From Ferruginibacter sp. (GTDB taxonomy: Bacteria; Bacteroidota; Bacteroidia; Chitinophagales; Chitinophagaceae), in the NCBI GenBank assembly GCA_014379905.1, contig JACMKX010000169.1, forward strand, positions 1 through 64,000: DNA of 64,000 nucleotides, given 5' to 3'. Shown piece by piece: positions 7,064 through 61,942 of the stretch (the first letter of the stretch is position 1; each line of letters starts with the position of its first letter). Below the pieces are notes generated by a model. The model was given only the letters and a program-made list of their open reading frames with translations. It was not told where the DNA came from and searched no databases. The translations under genes were made by a program, and so were the position numbers.

Positions 7064-7119
7064 TTTGGTGAATGGTTGATTGTAGATGGCCAATCGTCAA
7101 TGGTTAAAGGTCAAAGGTT
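7064..7119. repeat. degenerate heptamer (7-bp period) array
   Basis: tttggtg aatggtt gattgta gatggcc aatcgtc aatggtt aaaggtc aaaggtt: 8 consecutive 7-mers starting at the base after the TAG of the preceding CDS. Confidence 0.7.
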
Positions 7120-18929: not shown

Positions 18930-18957
18930 TTTTCACCATTGCCCATTCACCATTGAC
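18930..18957. repeat. short degenerate heptamer array (complement-strand orientation)
   Basis: ttttcac cattgcc cattcac cattgac. Confidence 0.5.
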
Positions 18958-23659: not shown

Positions 23660-23729
23660 AACATCAACTAACAGCGCTCAACTAACAACCATCAACTAAC
23701 AACCATCAACCATCAACCACGAGCATCAA
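23660..23729. repeat. degenerate heptamer array between hisB and hisH
   Basis: aacatca actaaca gcgctca actaaca accatca actaaca accatca accatca accacga gcatcaa: 10 consecutive 7-mers. Confidence 0.8.
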
Positions 23730-25914: not shown

Positions 25915-25942
25915 GTGAATTGGTGAATGGTGAATAGGCAAA
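25915..25942. repeat. short degenerate heptamer array directly after hisF stop codon
   Basis: gtgaatt ggtgaat ggtgaat aggcaaa, beginning at the base after TGA. Confidence 0.5.
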
Positions 25943-26144
25943 AGACAGTGCAATTATTCACCAGTGCCCATTTACCCTTAGACAAATTATACGGCTGCGC
26001 TGGTAACCCCATCGCAACAGGTTTATTGAAAATAAATAATAGGATTAAGTAGATAGTTCGCAAAAGCAGTGCTAGTATGATTTTGGTAAATGCGCCATGG
26101 TCGATTTTAAATCAGTAACTGCATAAGCAGCCTCTTTTGGATCG

Positions 26145-34204: not shown

Positions 34205-34287
34205 ATTGGGTATTGGGTGCCGGATTCTGGATACTTGATTCTGGATACATGATTCTGGATACATGATATGAATTACCGGGTACTGAT
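34204..34287. repeat. degenerate heptamer array (12 units)
   Basis: gattggg tattggg tgccgga ttctgga tacttga ttctgga tacatga ttctgga tacatga tatgaat taccggg tactgat, abutting the stop codon of the cupin gene. Confidence 0.85.
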
Positions 34288-38994: not shown

Positions 38995-39112
38995 GGGTTG
39001 CGTTGTCGGCACGTTTTCGTTGAAAAAAATACAATTCAAGTAAACCCATCACCATTCAACAACCATAATTTTTCTAAAAGCATTGACTATAAAAACAGCT
39101 ACAGCGCGGTTT

Positions 39113-40366
39113 ATGAAAACAAATACTGATATATTGAAGGAAATTATAGACATACAAAAAATCCGGAAAGATTTTCCCATACTTGATTCAATAATAAATG
39201 GCAGACCCTTAGTTTACTTTGATAATGCGGCCACCTCACAAAAACCATGGAGCGTTATTAAAGCTATTGAACATTATTATACTGACCTCAACAGTAACGT
39301 GCACAGGGGTGTACATCATTTAAGTCAGCAGGCAACAAATGCTTTTGAAGCTTCACGCAAAAAAATAGCTGATTTTATCAATGCGGCATATGATCATGAA
39401 GTGATCTTTACAAAGGGCACTACGGAAGGCATTAACCTGGTGGCGCATAGCTATGGGAAAAAATTTGTGCAGCAGGGCGACACGATCATTATATCCGCTA
39501 TGGAACATCACTCCAATATTGTTCCCTGGCAATTACTTTGTGAAGACAGAAAAGCAACACTGAAAATTATACCCATCAATGAAAAGGGAGAGTTGTTATT
39601 AGATGCATTTAAAGCAATGCTGGATGAAAAAGTAAAGCTCGTTTCAGTTACCTATGTTTCCAATTCGTTGGGCAGCATTAACCCAGTAAGGGAAATTATT
39701 GAACTTGCCCATCGGAAAAACATCCCGGTTTTACTGGATGCGGCGCAGGCGGTACAGCATATCCCGATTGATGTGCAGGAATTGGATGTAGATTTCCTTG
39801 CTTTCTCCGGTCACAAAATGTACGGCCCAACGGGTATTGGTGTTTTATACGGCAAGCAAAAATGGCTGAATCAAATGCCGCCTTACCAGGGTGGGGGGGA
39901 AATGATAAAATCTGTAAGTTTTGAAGCAACCACTTACAACGAATTACCTTTTAAATTTGAGGCCGGCACTCCCAATATCGAAGCGGCCATTTGTTTAGGT
40001 GCCGCTGTTGATTATATTAATGAAACGGGGTTGGAGAATATTCAACATTATGAGCAGGAATTGCTGGAATACGCCACCGGTAAATTATCGGAAATTGACG
40101 GAATAAAGTTTATAGGGACTTCAGATAACAAAGCAAGCCTTGTGTCATTTATTATAGAGAATGTACATCCTTATGATGTAGGCGTTATCCTCGATCAACT
40201 CGGTATAGCCGTACGAACAGGCCATCACTGCACGCAACCCCTCATGGATTTTTATGGGATACCTGGTACCGTGAGGGCCTCCTTTGCTTTTTATAATACC
40301 AGAGCAGAGATTGATACTTTGGTGGAAGGCGTGCGTAAAGCCGTGTCTATGTTAGCGGTAAAATGA
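39113..40366 (+). CDS. sufS: SufS-type cysteine desulfurase
   Basis: PLVYFDNAATSQKP, NVHRGVHHLSQQAT, FSGHKMYGPTGIGVLYG, VRTGHHCTQPLM; start could also be 39083. Confidence 0.96.
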   Translation: MKTNTDILKEIIDIQKIRKDFPILDSIINGRPLVYFDNAATSQKPWSVIKAIEHYYTDLNSNVHRGVHHLSQQATNAFEASRKKIADFINAAYDHEVIFTKGTTEGINLVAHSYGKKFVQQGDTIIISAMEHHSNIVPWQLLCEDRKATLKIIPINEKGELLLDAFKAMLDEKVKLVSVTYVSNSLGSINPVREIIELAHRKNIPVLLDAAQAVQHIPIDVQELDVDFLAFSGHKMYGPTGIGVLYGKQKWLNQMPPYQGGGEMIKSVSFEATTYNELPFKFEAGTPNIEAAICLGAAVDYINETGLENIQHYEQELLEYATGKLSEIDGIKFIGTSDNKASLVSFIIENVHPYDVGVILDQLGIAVRTGHHCTQPLMDFYGIPGTVRASFAFYNTRAEIDTLVEGVRKAVSMLAVK

Positions 40367-40513
40367 ATCATCGATAGGTGAATGGTCAATGGTGAATGGG
40401 TAATACATCCAACGATCATCGGCCAACAAACAACGACCAACAAACAACGACCAACAAACAACAAACAACGACCAACAAACAACGACCAACCCCCAACAAC
40501 CAACCCCCAAACA
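40367..40513. repeat. degenerate heptamer array (21 units) between sufS and sufE
   Basis: atcatcg ataggtg aatggtc aatggtg aatgggt aatacat ccaacga tcatcgg ccaacaa acaacga ccaacaa acaacga ccaacaa acaacaa acaacga ccaacaa acaacga ccaaccc ccaacaa ccaaccc ccaaaca; starts at the base after the sufS TGA. Confidence 0.9.
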
Positions 40514-40532
40514 ACTATTCTAAATCAACCCA

Positions 40533-40961
40533 ATGACAATCAACGAAATACAGGATGAATTGATTGAAGAGTTTTCCCTCTTTGGTGACTGGATGGAAAA
40601 ATATGAACACATCATCCAGATGGCAAAGGAACTGCCGGTGATAGCGGAACGGTATAAGCTTGACGAAAACCTGATAAAAGGATGCCAGGCAAAAGTATGG
40701 CTGCACCCAGATTTTAAGGATGGCAAAATACTATTCAGCGCCGACAGTGATGCCATCATTACCAAAGGCCTGGTAAGCATGGTAGTTCGTATTTTGTCAA
40801 ATCATACCCCTGCAGAAATTGTTCATGCTGATCTTTATTTTGTTGATGCCATCGGGTTGAAAGAGCATCTTTCCATGACCCGCTCCAATGGATTATTATC
40901 TATGTTAAAGCAGATGAAAATGTATGCCCTGGCGCTGCAATCCACACAAAACGTAAATTGA
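40533..40961 (+). CDS. sufE: SufE-family sulfur acceptor protein
   Basis: 142 aa; KYEHIIQMAKELPVIAERYKLDENLIKGCQAKVWL. Confidence 0.96.
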   Translation: MTINEIQDELIEEFSLFGDWMEKYEHIIQMAKELPVIAERYKLDENLIKGCQAKVWLHPDFKDGKILFSADSDAIITKGLVSMVVRILSNHTPAEIVHADLYFVDAIGLKEHLSMTRSNGLLSMLKQMKMYALALQSTQNVN

Positions 40962-41282
40962 TTGGTTATGATTGATAAGGTTAGTTTAGAAATAAAGATC
41001 ATCGAAACACTGAAGACAGTGAATGACCCTGAATTGTCGGCGGATGTTTATGAACTGGGGCTGATTTATGCTATTGATATAAGTGACAATGGCTTTGTAC
41101 ATATTAAGATGACACTGACCGCACCCGGCTGCCCGGTTGCCGGTGATATCATCATGGAAGTGGACAATAAAATCCGTGCTATTGAAGGTATAACCGATGT
41201 AAACGTGATGCTTACTTTTGACCCGCCCTGGAACAGGGAGATGATGAGTGAGGAAGCTAAACTGGAGTTGGGCTTTTTATAA
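40962..41282 (+). CDS. SUF-associated DUF59/MIP18-family protein
   Basis: 106 aa; LKTVNDPELSADVYELGLIYAI, MTLTAPGCPVAGDIIMEV, VMLTFDPPWNREMMSEEAKLELGFL. Confidence 0.95.
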   Translation: MVMIDKVSLEIKIIETLKTVNDPELSADVYELGLIYAIDISDNGFVHIKMTLTAPGCPVAGDIIMEVDNKIRAIEGITDVNVMLTFDPPWNREMMSEEAKLELGFL

Positions 41283-49140: not shown

Positions 49141-52100
49141 TTACTGAATTACCAGGCTGATGATAGTTTTGCCTTTACCCGGATCCGTTATCTCCAGGTT
49201 ATACATTCCTTTAGCAATATCATTTGCCAGGATTATTTTTTCTGTTGCATTACCACCCGAATGGGTAAACCCTTTGAGAAAAAGCGACTGCCCAATGGTG
49301 TTCAATAAACGAATTTTATATTTGCCGGGCACCATATTGTTGAATTGCAGGCCGATTACCCCGCCAGTTACAGGGTTTGGATAAACCTCCATTCCGCCAG
49401 GTACTTTTCCTATATTGACTTTTACTATTTTACTATAAGCCGCGGTACCATCCCTGTCAACGTTTTTGATTCGATAAAAATTATCCCCGTTTGCCGCATG
49501 CAGGTCTAACCAGTTATAAGTAGTCGCGGTATTATTGGGGTCTGTAACGTGCTGTGTATTTACCTTAGTGAAATTGCTGCCATCCAAGGATTTTTCCACT
49601 TCGTAACGATCTACATTCAACTGGTTTTCCACCTTCCAGCTTACCGCTATATTTTCGCCCTGTTGCCTGGCGATTACATCACTAAAGGTAACGGGCAAGG
49701 CCCCCGACTGTTTAAACACCAGGCGGAACCGCGTGGAATTAATGGAGGCTGCATCGCTATTGATGGTGAAATTATAATCAGTAATGCCTTCCAGGGTTAC
49801 CGGGGTGGCCATACCCGTGTAATGGTCTTCCAAAAACGCCAGCAGGTTTGGCTGGTGAAGATCATTTGCCTTAAATACCAACTGGTAATTTCTTTTAGTG
49901 GATTGGGTTAATTTTAAAAACAAGGTATCGGTTGTAACGATCAGTGGCCTTCTTTCAATGGATAGGGCAGTCCCATTTCTTGGCAAACTAAAGGTTTCAT
50001 TGATATTGGTAAACTTAACGGCATCCTGGAAATCAACTCCTGCATTGTAACCACTGGCAAATTCTGCCACCACACCATCCGCCGGTATGGTTGAATTATC
50101 CGCTTCAGCGAGGTTCAATATTATTTCCATAGATTTTACCTGGTTCAAAGGCCGGAAAGCTGCATTATGGCTCACACTGGTTTTGCTGCTTTCAAAAAAG
50201 GTTAAGCTGGCCGCAGAAGCCGTGTCTGTCAATACAAAGAAGGCCTGGCTCGACTGGATATTTTTATCCTGCAAACTGCCCGGAGGTGATGTTATGTACG
50301 TTCCGTCACTATTAAATAACAAGGTTACATAACCGCCCAGGAGGTTCAGTTTAGCATCCCAGGTATAAAATAAATTTGCTACATGGGATCTTTGCACATT
50401 ATTGAAATCAACAGGTGATGCATATGGATTTACCATCAACGAATAGGCATTGAGTGTGCCCGAAGCAGTAAATATCTGCTTACCCGTTTGCAATATCCCT
50501 GTACTTTTTAAAGTGGTTGCACTGCTGTTACCGGCATATAAATTATTGGGGTGCCTGTCACCACGGACAAAAACAAAATAACCCATATTAGCGGCATTAC
50601 TGGTAATACCTGACAGGTTGGTATTCCTGGTATCGGTAACATTTGAAAATCCCTGGGTAGCTGCATTAAACATTTTCATGGAAATAGTATTGAATGCGCT
50701 AACGTCTAATCCGTTAGTGGCAGGTTGGGGGTTAGGCCCTGTAATGAACATGCCCTTGCCGGCTTCATAAACGCCCCCGTTCTGCCACGAATTAAAAATT
50801 GAACCTGTAGCAGACAGCGGTGCGGTCAATAAACGCCATGCACGTTTGTTGGGTATAAACCTTTCCACCGTCACATTACCGTTAATATAACTTGTTGGAT
50901 TGCCAGCACCATCAACGGGTAGCGGCGCTACAATTGCGGTAGAAGCGGCTGTTGATTTTAAAATAAGAAAATCGCTTATTGTAAGTGTTTTACCACTGCT
51001 TCCCACAGTTAAAGTGCCGGTTATGGTATCCGCCCCCGAGAGGGTAACATTATTATTGATTACTAAGTTTAGCAGGCTGTTGCCGGTAAATGCGTTAGCA
51101 GGAATGGTTTGCGGTGCTGATCCATTCATCTCTATGGTTCCGCCTGAAACATCAAATGTTCCTGCATTACTGATTGACCCGGCTATTTGCAGGGATGCAC
51201 CAGTTACTGTTAATGATGCGCCATTTTGAATAGTAATATTATTTATCGCGTTGGTAGTACCCATGACCGGGTAAATAGGCAAGCCAGTCGAAATTAGTAC
51301 ATCAGTAGTTGAAGCCGGTACAGCGCATGACCAGTTACTGGCATTGTTCCAATCAGCATTTGTAGTGCCTGTCCACGTGCCGGCAGTGCCGATTATTACC
51401 GGTGAAGTCGTTTGAAATTGTGAACATCCTGCCGAAGCAGGAATGGTATAATTTACCAGGTAGTTTCCCACCGTACTTGCACCTAAATTAATGGCGCCGG
51501 TGGTGGAATTAATGGATAAAGACGGATCGGAAGAAAAAGTTCCTGAGGAAGCGTCCGTAACTGTAACAGTTGCAGTACCGGCATTTGAACAATAAGGGGA
51601 ACCTGTATAAGAAAAAGCAGTACCCCTGTTGCAAATTTCTCCTATGGAAAAATCTCCGAAGGAGGTAATAGCGGTTGCCTGAATATTGGTGGCATTGGCC
51701 GAAGCTATACCCGGCAACGCCCACGAAGAACCATTATAAAGCCCCACGCCAAAATTGGAAGTGGCGGCCCCACCATCAATATCAGGCGCAACAAAATTGC
51801 AGGTAGCGGAATAATTGTTAAAAATGATACCCGAATTGGTTAATGTCCAGAACCGGTTCACGCTTTTAGTTGGATTAATAATGGAACTGCTGATATTGGG
51901 ATGATCGCCTGCAGTGGTAAATGCAATTAAATTTCCTGCGGTGGTAACATTTGAAAATGCAATTGAAACAGGGGTAAAGCTTAAGGCATCACCTATTTCA
52001 AATGTTTTTCCGGTTGCCCCGGTTGCTATATTTTTCTGTATTTTACCGTTTACCCACCCGGTGTTTTGAGCAGCGCCGGTAACCGTTCCTGATGATGGAA

Positions 52101-55100
52101 GGATAATTAGTTGATTATCCGTTTGAATTTTTCCCGCAATAAAATTTAATGTCCCATTCACGGTTATGTTGGAAGAAAGGGTAGATGCCCCCGCTGATTT
52201 ATTGATGGTAAGGTTATTAAAAGCAGACAGGGAATAAATATCCTGGGCACCGCCGCCATTCAGGGTAAAGGTAGAACTGCTGCTGTTAATGATACCGTTG
52301 TTTACGATATTACCCCCTACAAAATGTATGTAATTACCTGCATTTAAAATAGAACCGCTGTTGATGGAAAGGTTATTGGTAATATTCCAGGCAGAGGAAG
52401 GAGTAATACCCGCAACATTTGAATTGGAAATTAATATATTTTGGAAAGTGGAAGGTGTACCAGCGAGGGTTATTTCGCCCGCTCCATCAAAATTCACTAT
52501 TCCTGTACTTGAAAAATTGGTGCCCAGGTTGATTGTTTTTGCAGTAGAGGGTATAAAGTTAATGTTACCGCTACTGGTTACGGTGCCGTTGTTTGTTAAA
52601 CTACCATATATATTATGGGTAGAAGAACCACCATTAAATGTAGCGCCCGGCCCTACTGTCAGCGAAGTTGCAATTGTCCATCCTACGCTGGGACTTACAC
52701 CACCGGTATTATTAATATATAAATTGGCAAATTGAGGGGCAGAAGTAGAGTTAAGGGCAGGTGATACAGAACCATTAAAGTTTACAGTCAATGCAACTGT
52801 AGTAGCATTTATTAAACTTAGGGTTTGTAAAACATTCCCTGTGAAAGTAGTTGTTCCAAGTGTATACAAAATACCACTGTTTACCAGATCGCCATTCATG
52901 GTTACCACAATTGTACTCCCTGCCCTAAAATTTCCGGTACTGGTAACATTAAGTAAACCATTAAAGGTAACATTACTCAAAATGGTATCAGTTCCTGAAA
53001 CCGTTGCATTATTAAATGTAGTATTACCGGTAATGCTTTTAGCCATGCCATTAAACAGGATCGTGCTGGTGGAGGGCACAAAGCTACCGTTGTTGACCCA
53101 GTTGCCATTTAATGTAATGGTATTAGACCCAGCATTAAAACTTGATCCGCTTTCTATGGTTAAATTACCATTCACGGTAAAAGGTGCTGTCAGTGTTTTT
53201 ACCCCTGCATTTCTAAATATGATATGGCCAAAGGCAATTGGTAATGGTAATGATTGCGGACCCGTGCCATCCAAAATTACAGTGCTTGCATTACCGAGTA
53301 CACCGCTTGTAAAATTCGTTGGGATATTATTGGCCGAAATAATAACAGTACCTGCGTCGGCCACCAGTATGGACCCCCCCAGTGTACTCCTGTTCCAATT
53401 AAAAGTCTTGGTATTAAGTGTTCCGGAAGTTACTGTAATGTTTCCTTTTATAACAATATTTCCGGTAAGTTCCGCAATGCTACCTACCGGTTTGTTGATA
53501 TTAAAATTGTTGAAAGTACTGGATGATATGGTTTGTGTTCCGCTGCCATCAAAAAATATGCTTGCAGCGGTTGCTGTAAATGTTCCGTTATTGGTCCAGT
53601 TACCTCCTACGTGTAAAATATTATGATTGTGTAAGGTTGCACCTGAACTAATAATCACATTGCCTGCAATGGTGGTAGTGGAAAGATTATCAAGTTCCCC
53701 GGCGGTTACTGTCAGGTTACCACCAACAGTAACGGGACTATTTACAGTAACGGATGCCGTTGCCTTATTAACGACCAGGTTATTATAATTTACAGCACCC
53801 ATTAGCTGGTTTGATACACCGTTGTAAGTAACAGTGCCGGTTCCCGGTGTTAATGTTCCGCCGGTATAATTATAATCCCCGGCGAGGTTTAAGTTTCCCG
53901 CCCCACTGAAAACAATATTCGCCCCCCCGGTTTGGTCAAGCATGCCTGTTATATTTACCGTTCCGGAGGCAATGTTTAGATTAATCTCCTGTCCTGTTCC
54001 ACCATGACTCAGGGAAAGGTCACCGTTTATTGTGATTGACTGATTATTTGCATTAATAGCATGTATCGCATTGGTACTCCAGGATCCGTGAACATCACCT
54101 GTTGTGAGTGAACCGCCAGCCGCCATAGACAGGTTAACTGCCTGTGCAGATCCAAAATTTATATTTTTAACGCTTACTGTATTACTGATCAATGGCTGGT
54201 AACTAAAAGATACCGTTCCCAGGTTTACAATATCCGTAGCAGATGGAGGGGTTGACGCTGAACCCTGCACAACGGTCCAGTTACCTGCAGTATTCCAATC
54301 CGTACTTTCACTTCCATCCCATACCACCACGTTTGAATTATCCGACAAGGTCCACTGGTTGGTGATATCCGTTAGCCCGCTTTGTTCTACATAATTTAAG
54401 GTAGTATTGTTGCCCGTTTTACCAATAGCACCCCAAACAGCGCCATTATATTTCCATAGCCCCATTGAAGACTCATTACTGCCATTAAGTTCATCGTCCT
54501 CATAATGGAGTCGAACTGTAGCGGTATAGGTACCTGTTGGAACCGCGATCGTGTACAACCTGTTTATTGACCCGCCAAACGGAAAACCACTGATCCTTCC
54601 TTTTTCAACAGATACTGTAACAGTAGTAACCCCGGAAACAGCAGAAAAACGAATCGTATTATCGGGACCTTCGAAAGCATAGTCGACACCTGTTGTAAAA
54701 GCATGGGTTCGTTGGATATTACCCATGATAATTCCATTGCCCGTCCGCGTAGAGGTAATAGTAAGGGTATTTGCCCCGGTAAGGATGGTGCCCATTGTCA
54801 TATTTACCGTTGAAGCGGAAACATTACTTTGCAAAATTACTCCCGTAGCCGCGGTACTATTATTAACTGTAAGGATATTAAAGGTAGTTGCACCAGTGAT
54901 ATTTGTAGTTTGGCTTCCAAGAAATTGTATTGTACTTGCACCGGGAGTAAAACTGCCATTGTTAATCCAGTCAATATAAATATAATGTGTAAAAGCACCC
55001 GGGATAAATGTGGTGCCTGCACCAATAGTGATGCTATTGTTTATAGTTATACCCCCAATGGCTGTTTTGTTGTTTCCATTACTCAGTGTAAGATTGTCAT

Positions 55101-58100
55101 AAGTGATGGCATTGATATCCTGTGCACCTGTTCCATTGAAATTTACAGTATTGGGGACTGAAGAATTTACATTTAAAGTACCTGCCGTAATTGTCAATCC
55201 AGCGGCAATTCCCAAAGTAGAATTGGCGGATAACTGCAGGGAGGTCCCATTGATAACCGTATTGAAGAGGTTGGCTGTTCCGCTTAAAGTAGCTGTTCCT
55301 GTAAAAGTTACTATACCGGCCGAAGCGGATAAACTTCCGTTAACTGCAAGGACCGATGAAATGGAAAAACTTGCATCAGTAGTAACATTTCCTGCTATGG
55401 ACAGAACATTAAAGGCCTTTGTGCCCGCTCCTGATATGGTTTTTGAAACACCGCTCATGGTAATGATGCCCGCACTTGCGGTGAGGCTTCCACTCGCCGA
55501 TAAATTGCCCCACAGGTCAAAAGAAGTAGCAGTGCTTACAGTTCCGCCTACGGCCAGGTTATCTAATGATATTCCCGAACCGCTGATGGTAGTAGCCGTG
55601 CCTGTCATTGATAAAATTCCTCCCGAAGCCTGGCTGAATGAACCAGATCCTGTGGTAGCAAGGTTACCGGATAAGCTAATGGTGCTGGCAGAAAAACTAA
55701 TACCTGAAGCAGCCACGGTAAGGCTATTAAAATTTTGAGTACCTGGTCCGCTTACCGAAGTGCCCGCGCCGGTAAAAGTAATTGTGCCGGTGTTACCATT
55801 AAAGGTACCACTGTTAACCCAGTTGCCCGTTATGCTATGTACGTAGCCACCTCCATTAAACGTAGTGGAAGCGCCAATGGAAACATTTCCATTAACAGTA
55901 ATAATGGACGCAGCGGTAAATGAAACAGCCGTACCTGCACCCAATATGCTGGTTAGGTTACCAACCACCGTCAATGCTGTGGCAGGGAATGTTTTTACTG
56001 CTGCGCCGCCCGAACTGCTTAGTTTAAGGTTTCCATAAGTTTGTGCCCCTACAGTTTGATTGGTACCAGAATATTCCACCGTACTATTTACTGATAAGAA
56101 ATTGGTTGTATAATTGGCCGGATAAGTATTGGTACCGCCGATCTTTAAAGTGGCGTTATTTGCAACAGTAAGGTTAGCGCCGGAAGTTAAGCGGTTGGCG
56201 GTATAAATCCCCATATCGAATGTTCCGCTGGATATGCTAAGATCGTTACTAATGCTGGCATTTACATTCAAAGTAACCGATGTAGCCGCGTTCGCAATAG
56301 CTAATCTGTTAAAAGTGCTTGAAAATGTTCCGGCTATTAACTGGGCGGCTGTACCATTGAAACTGACCGTAGCAGTGCCTGCTGTAAAGGCGGTTGCTGA
56401 AGCATTGTTTGTCCAGTTACCCTTAACGGCGATATTGAAATTATTTGCATTGAGTGTACCGGCAGTAATCAACAGGTTATTGTTAACGGTGATTGCGGCA
56501 GGCAAAAGAAGGCCAAAGCTATTTGTAAGCGTTAAATTATAGAAGGAAATTACACCCGAAAAAGTTTGCAGGCTGGTTGTTCCGTTAAAATTGGTTGTGC
56601 CATTGTTGGCCATCGTGCCATTATTGGTGAGCGTACCCGCGATATTCAGGGAGCCCGCCAAAGAAGTAGTAAGGGTAGCCCCGGCATTGATCGTAAGATT
56701 ATTACAGGCTACACTGCTGATGATCGACGGCATATTGGTAGCAGGGGAACTGATAACAACATTGGTGGCAGCAGTGGGAACTACGCCATTGCACCAGTTG
56801 CTGGCAACAGCCCAATCGGTGCTTACCGCACCAGTCCACTGGCCGGCAGTAGTGCTTGAAACTACATTTGTGTAGGCCGTAGAAGTGCAACCTGCTGCTG
56901 TTACATTTAGCGTATATACGCCTGCGTTAACCGCATTGTAAACAAGTGTGGGGTTTTGTAAGGTGGACGTAAAACTGTTGGGCCCTGTCCAGGAGTAGCT
57001 TCCGCCAACCGTGGTGGCAGCAAGGCTGAGTGTTGATCCTATACACACCGGGCCATTATTGCCTGCACCATCGGGTGATTTATATAATGCAGCTATTTCA
57101 GCAGCAGAAAGTACGCCATGGTATATCAATACATCATCGAGGCTGCCATTAAAATAAAAACTGCCGGGTTGATTCGTCCAGGAGTTCACATTATCAAACC
57201 CTATCCTCCAATAACCGTTAAAATTTTCGGCTGTAGTGGGGGTGGCATTAGTGCCTGCCTGCACGCCGTCTATGTACAGGATCATTCCCGTAGCAGCGGA
57301 AAATGATCCGGTGGCCTGGTGCCAGTTACCGTCATTATAAGCCAACGTGGTATTTACGGTTCTTACCGCTCCATTGTAAACACCAAAATATATCTGCCCT
57401 CCGTTGGTCATATAAAGATGGCGGTCATAATTGGTGCTGGTACCTGTTTGAGATTTACCAAATCCAATTAATTTACCACCGGTAGTGGTGGTAGTTTTAA
57501 ACCAGATAGAGATCGTGAAAGTATTTGGGTTTGTATATAAATTAGCAGTGGAAATATAATCGTTGATACCATCAAAATTATAGGCTTTGCTGGCATTGTT
57601 AAAACGGTCTGTTGTTAATGCCGGGCCGTTTTGCAGTGTACCATTATTGTTAGCTATAGCATCGTTGGCATTTCCTTCAAACTTATAATTACCGATAAGA
57701 TTAGATGAAGGTACCTGCGTGATGGCTGGCGCTGCAGTTACAGTAATATTAGCAGTAGACGAAGATGCACAACCTCCCAAACTTGTATTTGTAACGATGT
57801 ATGTTCCGGCCGTACTGATCGCTAAATTTACCACACCCGTAGCTGCGTTGATAGATAGGCCGGCAATATTGGATGTAAATGTTCCGGCAGTTCCGGTAAT
57901 GGTAGGTACGGCAGTTCCTGCGTTAGAACAATAGGGTGTACCGGGGTAACTAAACGCAGAAGAAGATGCACATATTTCCCCTACGGCAAACTCACCAAAA
58001 GAAGTTAACGCGGTAGCCTGTATAGATGTTGCTAAGGGCGAAGCAATAGTGGGCAGGGCCCAGGTGGGATTGTTATATTTTCCAACCTTAAAATTGGCGG

Positions 58101-61100
58101 TAGTTGATCCTGCGTCTACGTCTGCTGAAACCCAATTAATAGTAAGCGTGGCATTGGTAAAAACTATACCGCTGTTGGTTAAAGCCAGGAAACGGTTTAC
58201 GCTTTTATCGTTTCTGAGGCCTGAGCCTGTAATGCCGGGATGTTCGGTTGCCGTTACAGTTGCTGTAAGGTCACCCGCCGTGGTAACGCTGGCAAATGCA
58301 ACAGTTGCTGGGGTATAGTTGCCTGTATTACCGGTTTCAAAACTAAGGGTAGGGGTACCTGTTGTAATATATTTTTTTAAGTTACCGATAACATGGCCCC
58401 CGGAGGTTCTTACGATGCCCGCGGCCGCGGAATTGAGGTAAATTGTATTTGCACCGGTAGTAATAGTTCCCCCGGAAAAACTAAGTATACCACTGACTGT
58501 TACATTGCCTGACACTGCATCCGTGCCGCTGGAATTACCCAGCTTTAGGTTGGTATATGTACCGTTCATTACGGTTTGTGCCCCTGTTGTGGCGGCATAT
58601 TCTACTGTACCTGTACCTCCCCATGTTCTGCCTGTTGGAAAAGGTGTTGCGCTCGTAGAAGTAATTACAGCGGTTTTAATAGTGCCGTTATTTGTAATTG
58701 TACCCAACATACTGATCAGCCTGTAAGTTGGGCCCATATCCAGTGTGCCTCCTGCGGTAGTTACAAATTGATTGTTTACAGTTAAATCGCCGGCCGCTGT
58801 GTTGGTTCCGGCAGTGTTTGAAAATCTTATAATATTATAGGTTCCTCCAACAATTGTTTGCGCACCTGCAGGGGCATTGTAATAAATAGAACCGTCCCAG
58901 GTTTTACCCGTCGGTATAGGTGTGGCGCTTGTTGAGGTGGGAACGGAGGTTCTGATGTCGCCGCTATTCGCAATGCCGGTCAATGCGCCGCTCAGCACAT
59001 AGGTACCCAGGTCAAAAGCTCCGAATGCTGTGGTAACCGTAAGCGCACCATCTATAACAATGTTACCACTTGCCGTTGCTATCTTGCTATTTCCGGGACG
59101 GACGGTAAGGTTATTGTATGTACCTGCCACCACAGTTTGATTAGCAGTGGCACTATTATAATCTATGGTACCGCCCCAGGTTTTTGAAGGGGGTATTGGT
59201 GTGGCGCTCGTGGTAGTAGGTACAGCCGTTTTAATGGTTCCGCTATTGCTGATGACGCCCAATGTGCCGGTTAATATGGTTGTTGTTCCAAGATCAAGAA
59301 TTGCTGATGTCCCTGTTGTTAAAGTTCCGTTTACCACTAACCCGGTTATTCCTGATGAAGATGTTACTGTGGACGATACCGCAATTGCAAGGTTATTAAA
59401 GGTATTGTTTAGTGTTGTGCCGCTCATAATGGTTATTCCATTAAAAGTAACGGTTGAAATGCTTTGGGTAAAAGTGCCGTTATTGATCCAGTTACCGCCA
59501 ACTGTAAGATCGAGCGTGTTGGGATCCAGTGTCCCCCCGGCGATAGTAAGATCGTTTTTAACAACGAGGGGCGCAGTCAATAGTTTGGCAACAGGCGCAT
59601 TGGTACTGTTAATAGTAAGGTTCCATACTGGTGGCGTAGAATTGATTCGAAAAGTATCAGTAGCAACGGTAGTACCGTTGCCAATCTGTAAAGTGCCACC
59701 GGTAACACTCGATGTGCCGGCGGCATTCGTATAACCCAGGTAAGACCCGCCACTTTTGGCAATTACAATGGTACCACCCGACATATTGAAAACAGATGCT
59801 GCTGCAGCAATAGTAAATGGTGCAAGGGGTGTTGTATTACCTATCACACCTGCATTGAAAGTTCCCCCCGACATGGTAAATGTTATCACATCTGTGGTAT
59901 TTAGATAACTAAGCCTACCCGCAATATTCACTATACCTCCCTCTATGGTAATAACTGCACCGGTTCTGATTCCAATCTTTTCATCAATAGCGTCCCCGGC
60001 ATTTAAAACACCATTGGAAACACGCAACAACCCGGCAAGAGAAAAACTACTTGTTGTTGTTATTGTTCCACCATTTACCCACAATCCGGCAGTGGAAGGG
60101 ATATTATAAGGAGCAGTAACATTTTCTGTTGTAAAGGGCGTAATGGTGGATGCACTTGATATTTTAAATGTTCCGTTGGTAAGGGTTAATCCACCCGCAG
60201 TCATTGTAACAATTGATTGCACATCAAGTATACTGCTATTGTTAGTGCCTTTATCTATGGTGATAGTATTAAATCCAGTGGTGGAAGAACCTGTTACAGT
60301 TGTAGAACCTGCGCCGTTAAAAGTTACCCTGCCCGTGCCCGCAGTAAATCCTGCATTGTTGATCCAGTTGCCACTGATAGAAATATTGAAATTATTTAGG
60401 TTCAATGTGCCAGACGACAGGGTCAGATTTCCACTTACAGTAACTGCGCTATTTAAAAGAAGTCCTGCTGCATTGTTTACTGTAAGATTAGTAAAAGTAG
60501 AAACCCCTGTAAATGTTTGCTGGCCGGTAGTTCCATTAAAATTGGTAGTACCATTATTTGTCATGGTTCCGTTGTTGGTAATATTACCGGCTACATTTAA
60601 GGTGCCTGCTGCTGAAGTGGTAACGCTGGCCCCTGGGTTTATTGTGAGGTTTTTACAGCTTGCTGCGCCGCTAATGCCAGGTTGAAGGGCTGTTGCGGGT
60701 ATAATCACATCGGTGGCAGAAGATGGGACAGCCCCACTGCACCAATTGCCAGCCGTAGCCCAGTCCGTGTTGATTGCTCCGCTCCACACACCGGTACATG
60801 TTACAAAAGCCCAGCCCGAAGCGCTGGTGGTACTTATGGCTGCGGCAGTGCTCATGTTAAAAAGGGTTCCGTCTGTTTGACCTGCAACCAGGTTGTCTGC
60901 AACGCCCCCTGTTCCCTCATTTAAATTTAAATATTTATAGAGCCCGGCTTCATTGCCAATAAGACTACTATTCATATTAGCTGAAATTTGTGCCGGTGTA
61001 CGGGCTGAATTCCAAACCCTTATTTCATCCAGGTAACTATTTAAGTTATTGCTTCCTATACCGCCAATACTTTGGGTTGTGTTAGCTGTTAAGGGAAGTG

Positions 61101-61605
61101 ATCCCGCAACCCCGGTGCTGCCATTTTGCACTCCATCTACATATAATTTAACTGTTCCAGGACTGCCGGCAGTTCTTACCACAGCAATATGGTGCCATAG
61201 GCCGTCATTCAAATTAGTGGTGCCTGCAGTTTCAGTGTTGGAATTACCATCGCCAAAAGCAAGCTTATTGTTCAACATAGAAAATGTAAAATCATCGGCC
61301 GCACCAACTATATCAGCAGAAAAAATGACATTACCCTGCCATGCAGCGGAACCGGTATTACTTGTTGCAGATGTCTTTATCCTGGCTTCTAAAGTAAAAC
61401 TTGCGGCTACACCATTCGGTATAGTTAGATAATCATTTACCCCGTCAAATCTTAACGCATAATCGGTTTGGCCAAAACTTTCAATTGTAGAAAAGAGTGC
61501 AATGCAACACACCCATATTAACTTTTTAACTGATGGCAGGCTATTAAAAAATCTTAAGCTAATTAAGACCAATAAATTAGAAAAGGGTACATATAATTTT
61601 TTCAT
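49141..61605 (-). CDS. giant repetitive T9SS-secreted surface protein with two LamG/concanavalin-like domains and beta-solenoid-type repeats
   Basis: ~4154 aa from ATG 61605 ([17 protein letters not shown]...; signal peptide ends ...SFGQ); LamG ([18 protein letters not shown]...; [16 protein letters not shown]...), repeated [15 protein letters not shown] units, C-terminal [18 protein letters not shown]...[21 protein letters not shown]. Confidence 0.95.
58600..59330 (-). repeat. three tandem ~93-aa protein-coding repeats inside the giant gene
   Basis: [28 protein letters not shown] / [28 protein letters not shown] / [28 protein letters not shown], spaced about 280 bp. Confidence 0.8.
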
Positions 61606-61942
61606 AGTCAGATCAATTATTTCAGGGTATCGGATCAATATTTTTTAAAAGTTCAGACCCGGGTGATTACAATTTCATTATTGCTTACATGCAAAGAATC
61701 AGGCATCTCAGGTTTTTAAAACCCACTGATGTATTTCTGCTAAATCCAGGGTGCAAAAACTAATTAAAAAATACATGGATTGACTGCAAAGTATGATATT
61801 AAAATGTAGTGGTTTGTAGCATGAACACAGCGACAGGTATAGCAATTTTTCTACAGATAACACTTGTAACCTGATTAGAAATAGGTGTAATTGATAGCCC
61901 TCAGCGTTTGTTTTTGAAATTAATGTAAGGATGAAATTTCGC

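Follow-up and report, generated by a model that had tools for sequence, protein, structure and literature searches.

A heptamer array between sufS and sufE as a probable ORF-less derivative of a stop-codon S23 element with inverted arms

How does an array of 7-bp units come to lie behind the stop codon of sufS, and why does it turn from G-rich to C-rich on its way to sufE? The array is part of a 64,000-nt stretch of DNA (the window) from a Ferruginibacter genome bin (5.1 Mb, 194 contigs), the suf proteins of which are closest to Chitinophagaceae; SufS shares 80% identity with its Chitinophagaceae UBA4407 orthologue. A sequence-only reading had parsed the gap into 21 in-phase 7-mers from the base after the stop codon onwards. 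Indeed, a period-7 array is present, as the 166-nt gap yielded a lag-7 score of 39.0, a value that none of its 2000 dinucleotide shuffles approached (15.8 at most), and TRF called 40377-40399 and 40423-40515. The strict parse, however, is partly forced, with units 1–2 and 5–8 matching the next unit at 2–4 of 7 positions and the real start lying 10 nt past the stop; the supported period-7 segment (40377-40510) consists of a short G-rich and a long C-rich arm (Table 1). The shift from G-rich to C-rich along the + strand was borne out by the composition of the arms (G11 C1 in the G arm, G7 C42 in the C arm), and the array is noncoding and situated between sufS and sufE, as had been stated. Its contiguous 7-mers also set it apart from CRISPR, with repeats of tens of bp and unique spacers. 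We read the G-rich and C-rich halves as two inverted arms of one element, a relationship that the sequence-only reading missed. Periods of 14, 21 and 35 bp in the array are expected if whole blocks of units were duplicated.

Table 1. Features of the sufS-sufE region and of further period-7 arrays in the window
Feature	Position	Strand	Remarks
G-rich array	7066..7118	+	starts 2 nt past stop codon (7063)
C-rich TTCACCA array upstream of hisG	18932..18954	+	missing in orthologous gap of G063
C-rich CATCAACTAACAACC array, hisB-hisH junction	23662..23719	+	
G-rich GGTGAAT arm	25915..25938	+	directly after his-operon stop codon
Short C-rich inverted partner (TTATTCACCAGTGCCCATTTACCC) of the 25915 arm	25954..25977	+	read from sequence
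GGATTCT/GGATACT array	34205..34268	+	directly after stop codon; related unit in an arm of S23 locus C16:29209 (AATCCAGTATCTAGTATCC)
sufS (cysteine desulfurase)	39083..40366	+	TTG start from longest ORF, so 5' end uncertain
sufS stop codon	40364-40366	+	borders the element
Leader, stop to first well-matched unit	40367..40376	.	10 nt; lag-7 segment starts at 40377
G-rich 5' arm	40377..40404	+	four units, GGTGAAT GGTCAAT GGTGAAT GGGTAAT
Poorly matched stretch separating the arms	40405..40422	.	unit-to-unit identity 2-4/7; without S23 ORF
C-rich 3' arm	40423..40510	+	CCAACAA / ACAACGA / CCAACCC units; 14/21/35-bp higher-order period
sufE	40533..40961	+	first gene 3' of array
sufT-like gene	40962..41282	+	next in operon; named by position and sequence resemblance only

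The array is not an isolated case. Further period-7 arrays had been proposed at 7064, 18930, 23660, 25915 and 34204, and all five are present. In 0.66 Mb of this genome, 57 intergenic segments showed period 7, compared to 2.8 in dinucleotide shuffles; 7 was the commonest period among those from 4 to 16, and periods 8 and 9 were likewise in excess. Fourteen arrays of this genome started within 2 nt of a stop codon, with 2.4 expected, and when all samples were restricted to gaps offering 80 nt or more of free space, there were 15 such arrays compared to 1.1 expected. When array positions were measured across gene borders, most near-stop arrays began close to the stop and some overlapped it. Across samples, 76 arrays were G-rich and 31 were C-rich on the strand leaving the neighbouring gene. 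The two outcomes that had been named as refuting the class, no genome-wide excess of period 7 and no enrichment at stop codons, were thus not observed. The notion of a single class with a common period, varying units and a location at stop codons survived, as did its likeness to cyanobacterial STRRs, given that the arrays are degenerate 7-bp intergenic tandem repeats; heptamer arrays were already known from Bacteroidetes (PMC4679880). Genes were called throughout as longest ORFs, by far the longest in the window comprising 4165 codons (49141-61638, - strand). We also observed second copies of two genes that normally occur once, a DUF520 gene (78%) and hisB (70%), in this bin (contigs C82 and C21 compared to C30), which suggests that it may mix two related genomes or carry paralogous operons.

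As sufE was found in only 1 of 23 sampled genus members, orthologous junctions were compared in named relatives and in his-operon gaps; the suf operon on C30 may have been laterally acquired or may stem from another organism. In one of the two closest relatives (L023), sufS and sufE are separated by 19 repeat-free nt, while the gap in L024 contains two arrays with units unlike those of the window. In Chitinophagaceae UBA4407 (L022, 3726-3968), a long palindromic element (CACTTGTACA...TGTACAAGTG) encloses a heptad array. The hisB-hisH junction, a 109-nt array-bearing gap in the window, is replaced by overlapping genes in several genus members, and in G063 it carries a G-arm/C-arm pair with other units, the fold of which beats shuffles (z -2.2). 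These differences between orthologous gaps indicate that arrays appear and disappear at a constant position while the unit changes. In two other Bacteroidota (L033, L095), the same sufS-sufE junction harbors a complete element, with the gene of the S23 four-helix-bundle protein (PF05635; 23S rRNA intervening-sequence protein, IVP) in L033 (Pfam E 1.5e-35) and with such a gene between the arms AGTCCAAAGTTTGAAAGTTCAAAG and CTTTGAACTTTCAAACATTGAACATTGGACT in L095. Other suf junctions contain S23-bearing elements (L080, L094, L096, L073, L100) or arms without S23 (L056, L057, L070, L083, L089, L092). Array gaps of named Bacteroidota that contain S23 are longer, the gene being flanked by an array and, on its opposite side, by the inverted counterpart of that array. 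A filled and an empty site are represented by L235, arranged as A-element-B, and L254, where only about 40 nt lie between A and B.

The complete layout consists of a stop codon, a G-rich 7/8/9-bp array, the S23 gene, an inverted C-rich array and a start codon. This genome contains 10 PF05635 matches, most of them between inverted 7/8/9-bp arrays, and the family is present in 56 of the 59 members of the genus; across the phylum, 157 of 199 sampled Bacteroidota genomes have it, as compared to 0 of 14 control genomes. An array (score at least 9) flanked the S23 gene on at least one side in 53 of 70 loci, compared to 2–4 in shuffles. Both sides bore arrays in 17 of the 70, compared to 3 of 377 control small ORFs (Fisher 2.6e-12), even though the design puts the S23 set at a disadvantage, its flanks ending at the neighbouring genes while control flanks were fixed at 220 nt; as sampling of the 70 loci favoured best-scoring matches and some loci are mutually orthologous, p-values overstate independence. 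The arms of S23 loci are inverted in a ratio of 58:8, G-richness marking the upstream arm (44:3) and C-richness the downstream arm (32:4), and most arms start 0–6 nt past the upstream stop. The upstream gene is co-directional in 64:1 and the downstream gene in 61:6 cases. At the level of sequence, these loci delineate a class that is stop-proximal, placed between co-directional genes in operon orientation and equipped with inverted, mutually matched arms, and S23-element arms are seen to come and go at orthologous sites. In 100-kb samples (G107, G176, G208), two S23-rich genomes had 0–1 period-7 arrays and an S23-free genome had 0, so that array abundance is not determined by S23 content alone. 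A head-to-head, telomere-like origin through end addition at breaks would fit the direction of the arms; it was dropped, as the arms flank a gene and their periods vary from 7 to 9. The PF05635 protein matched PDB 2gsc. As a separate observation, GxxExxY genes (PDDEXK_3, PF13366) in this genome (L289-L295) are located between short inverted periodic arms of about 8–10 nt, for example GCCACAAAGACGCAAAGACTCAAAGG / GCCTTTGTGTCTTTGTGGC, suggesting GxxExxY as a second cargo family of such elements.

Plain replication slippage, by which 7-bp duplications would be purged from coding DNA as frameshifts and accumulate in gaps, with S23 genes being incidental, accords with part of these data. Arrays are rarer in ORFs (12 in 1.0 Mb) than elsewhere (75 in 0.15 Mb), and the higher-order periods of 14, 21 and 35 bp as well as the excess of periods 8 and 9 are in line with it. 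According to Mrazek et al., as summarized in PMC4679880, heptanucleotides outnumber all other categories of long simple repeats in most bacterial genomes rich in repeats, and a polymerase footprint was proposed to explain them. However, slippage does not predict inverted arms that flank a 350-nt gene and usually have both unit and period in common, nor the G-first order, nor anchoring at stops in long gaps, nor the association of S23 with arms, which is strong here. We therefore consider it an unlikely origin of the class. Of the slippage-type generation that the sequence-only reading had put forward, one part stands: block duplication by slippage or unequal exchange still accounts for arm lengthening, while the unit and period common to both arms, their order and their siting at stop codons are left without an account.

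In RNA duplex energies, the arms of S23 loci paired better with each other than with partners from other loci (median z -2.3), ranking in the top 5% in 39 of 67 cases. Where orthologous insertions had different units, own arms outpaired swapped arms in 28 of 36 pairs (p 2e-5). This preference despite changed units implies either selection on pairing or copying of one arm from its partner. Taken together, arms-only gaps paired less specifically than S23 arms, with 19 of 71 in the top 5%.

Such co-variation of arms in orthologous insertions, like the fold of the G063 hisB-hisH pair, would also be expected of a functional intercistronic hairpin or leader (an mRNA stabiliser, a terminator or a CA-rich unstructured leader) that is under selection and involves no mobile element, and the C-rich arm just upstream of the start codon would suit a leader. 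However, the arrays are sporadic at orthologous junctions, where relatives can have overlapping genes, their units turn over fast, and the fold of the whole sufS-sufE gap of the window is no better than that of shuffles (z -0.40), leaving a hairpin across this gap unsupported. A selected hairpin or leader thus appears improbable to us. Tandem stop codons acting as a barrier to read-through were considered as well.

We give about the same low credence to the reverse order of events, in which heptad arrays are a separate type of insert that served as a hot spot and later captured S23 (and GxxExxY) genes. In its favor, about 50 arrays were found in 1.15 Mb of this genome (G000), compared to 10 S23 matches in all 5.1 Mb, and a second family, PF13366, likewise sits between inverted periodic arms. 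Yet the arms match each other across the ORF, beyond local matching, and S23 is kept at orthologous sites while the unit changes; neither is in keeping with arrays that came first.

We suggest instead that the array in the window is probably an ORF-less, partly degenerated derivative of a stop-codon S23 element with G-rich and C-rich inverted arms. The array fits the intercistronic layout of such arms, with tandem units that lead from a G-rich to a C-rich arm, downstream of a stop codon and between co-directional genes. In addition, 8-mers of its C arm reached 5.1 per kb in the downstream arms of S23 loci, compared to 1.2 per kb in all intergenic DNA and 0 in S23 upstream arms, two loci contributing much of this signal. 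A profile search revealed no PF05635 ORF in the sufS-sufE gap of the window or on contig C30, and the window arms are not complementary when compared to random partners (z 0.04). The derivative reading draws on the position, the orientation and the unit style that the array has in common with S23-element arms, and we take the descent of this particular array, as an ORF-less, drifted and block-duplicated derivative, to be the least certain step of our reading.

How such an element might operate can be outlined as follows. In the co-transcript, the arms would pair into a stem whose loop contains the S23 ORF, much like the intervening sequence (IVS) of 23S rRNA, and the element could spread as a selfish insert that is tolerated behind stop codons. 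Loss of the S23 gene would leave paired arms behind, and these leftover arms might then drift and, through 7n duplications, grow or shrink into arrays of the type found in the window. Neither a target duplication nor a transposition event nor an excision product turned up among the loci compared; mobility is what we infer. The strand bias together with the stop-codon position would point to transcript-coupled insertion. As PF05635 resembles the DGR accessory protein Avd in sequence and fold (PMC10053308), a reverse transcriptase (RT) partner acting in trans is a candidate at most; neither an RT nor template/variable repeats, the hallmarks of a DGR, were noticed in the element itself.

Heptamer repeats next to S23 genes also occur outside Bacteroidota. 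Period-7 or period-8 arrays lay beside the S23 gene in 12 of 12 examined cyanobacterial plasmid loci, from Nostoc, Calothrix, Stanieria, Geminocystis and other hosts, as exemplified by GGGAACA with TGTTCCC at the S23 locus of Nostoc sp. C052. We infer that these cyanobacterial arrays are classical STRRs. On some cyanobacterial plasmids (L316, L317, L319), S23 genes are part of CRISPR-cas operons: in Pseudanabaena galeata and in Anabaena sp. 90 the flanking genes are cas6 and cas4, in Picosynechococcus PCC 7003 they are cas10 and a Cmr3-family gene. On plasmid alpha of Nostoc PCC 7120 (L218 3776-4185), an S23 gene and a CTCTGCC heptad arm follow an apparent transposase 3' end, and a second plasmid of the strain encodes an S23 protein with 100% identity to this one; the gene on plasmid alpha may therefore ride on an insertion sequence.

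A broader proposal, which we put forward tentatively and with somewhat less than even confidence, is that S23/IVP genes form the core of widespread, tiny mobile elements that insert behind stops in operon orientation, that the self-matching tandem arms of these elements are the source of the heptamer repeats (STRRs) of Bacteroidota and cyanobacteria, and that insertion is coupled to transcripts, possibly in an Avd-like manner with an RT in trans. The 7-base repeats of both groups could then be explained as leftover arms of a small selfish hairpin element of stop codons. For intergenic heptamer repeats as well as for IVS elements, both origin and function have been described as unresolved (PMC4679880, PMC4990558), and linking the two would provide a testable origin for the repeats and a role for the S23 family. 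Such elements would also offer a case from nature in which insertion is confined to the bases that follow stop codons, and transcript-coupled insertion, if true, would represent an unusual mechanism of mobility. In the open-access literature, we found no description of S23 genes with tandem repeats or of an intercistronic S23 element.

Among known systems, the TAACTGA repeats of Beggiatoaceae, cyanobacteria and five Bacteroidetes (PMC4679880) and STRRs resemble the present arrays in being intergenic 7-bp tandem units, often immediately upstream of a start or located at a stop, strain-specific and with mixed heptamers, but the units in the window are GGTGAAT and CCAACAA/ACAACGA rather than TAACTGA. 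The origin of heptamer repeats was left open in that study, and a search of its text revealed no S23 or four-helix genes. Long simple sequence repeats (Mrazek et al. 2007) share the prevalence of heptamers as a long class, whereas neither a two-arm architecture nor a cargo gene features in the summary of that work given in PMC4679880. MITEs and REPIN/REP elements are likewise small, inverted, ORF-less, dispersed and intergenic, and inverted arms are seen in the present class; in contrast to them, there is no fixed terminal sequence here, no transposase partner was seen among the loci compared, and the unit differs at nearly every locus. The IVS of 23S rRNA with an S23 ORF, as in Coxiella burnetii, has been described as selfish, sporadic and horizontally acquired, and it shares with the complete elements a PF05635 protein and terminal inverted repeats enclosing the ORF (PMC4990558). 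The array in the window itself has no S23 ORF, no complementary termini and no location in a 23S rRNA helix, from which an IVS is excised by RNase III. The complete S23 element differs from the IVS in lying between protein genes behind stop codons rather than in a 23S rRNA helix, and in having arms built of tandem 7/8/9-mers; it is IVS-like, yet located between mRNA cistrons.
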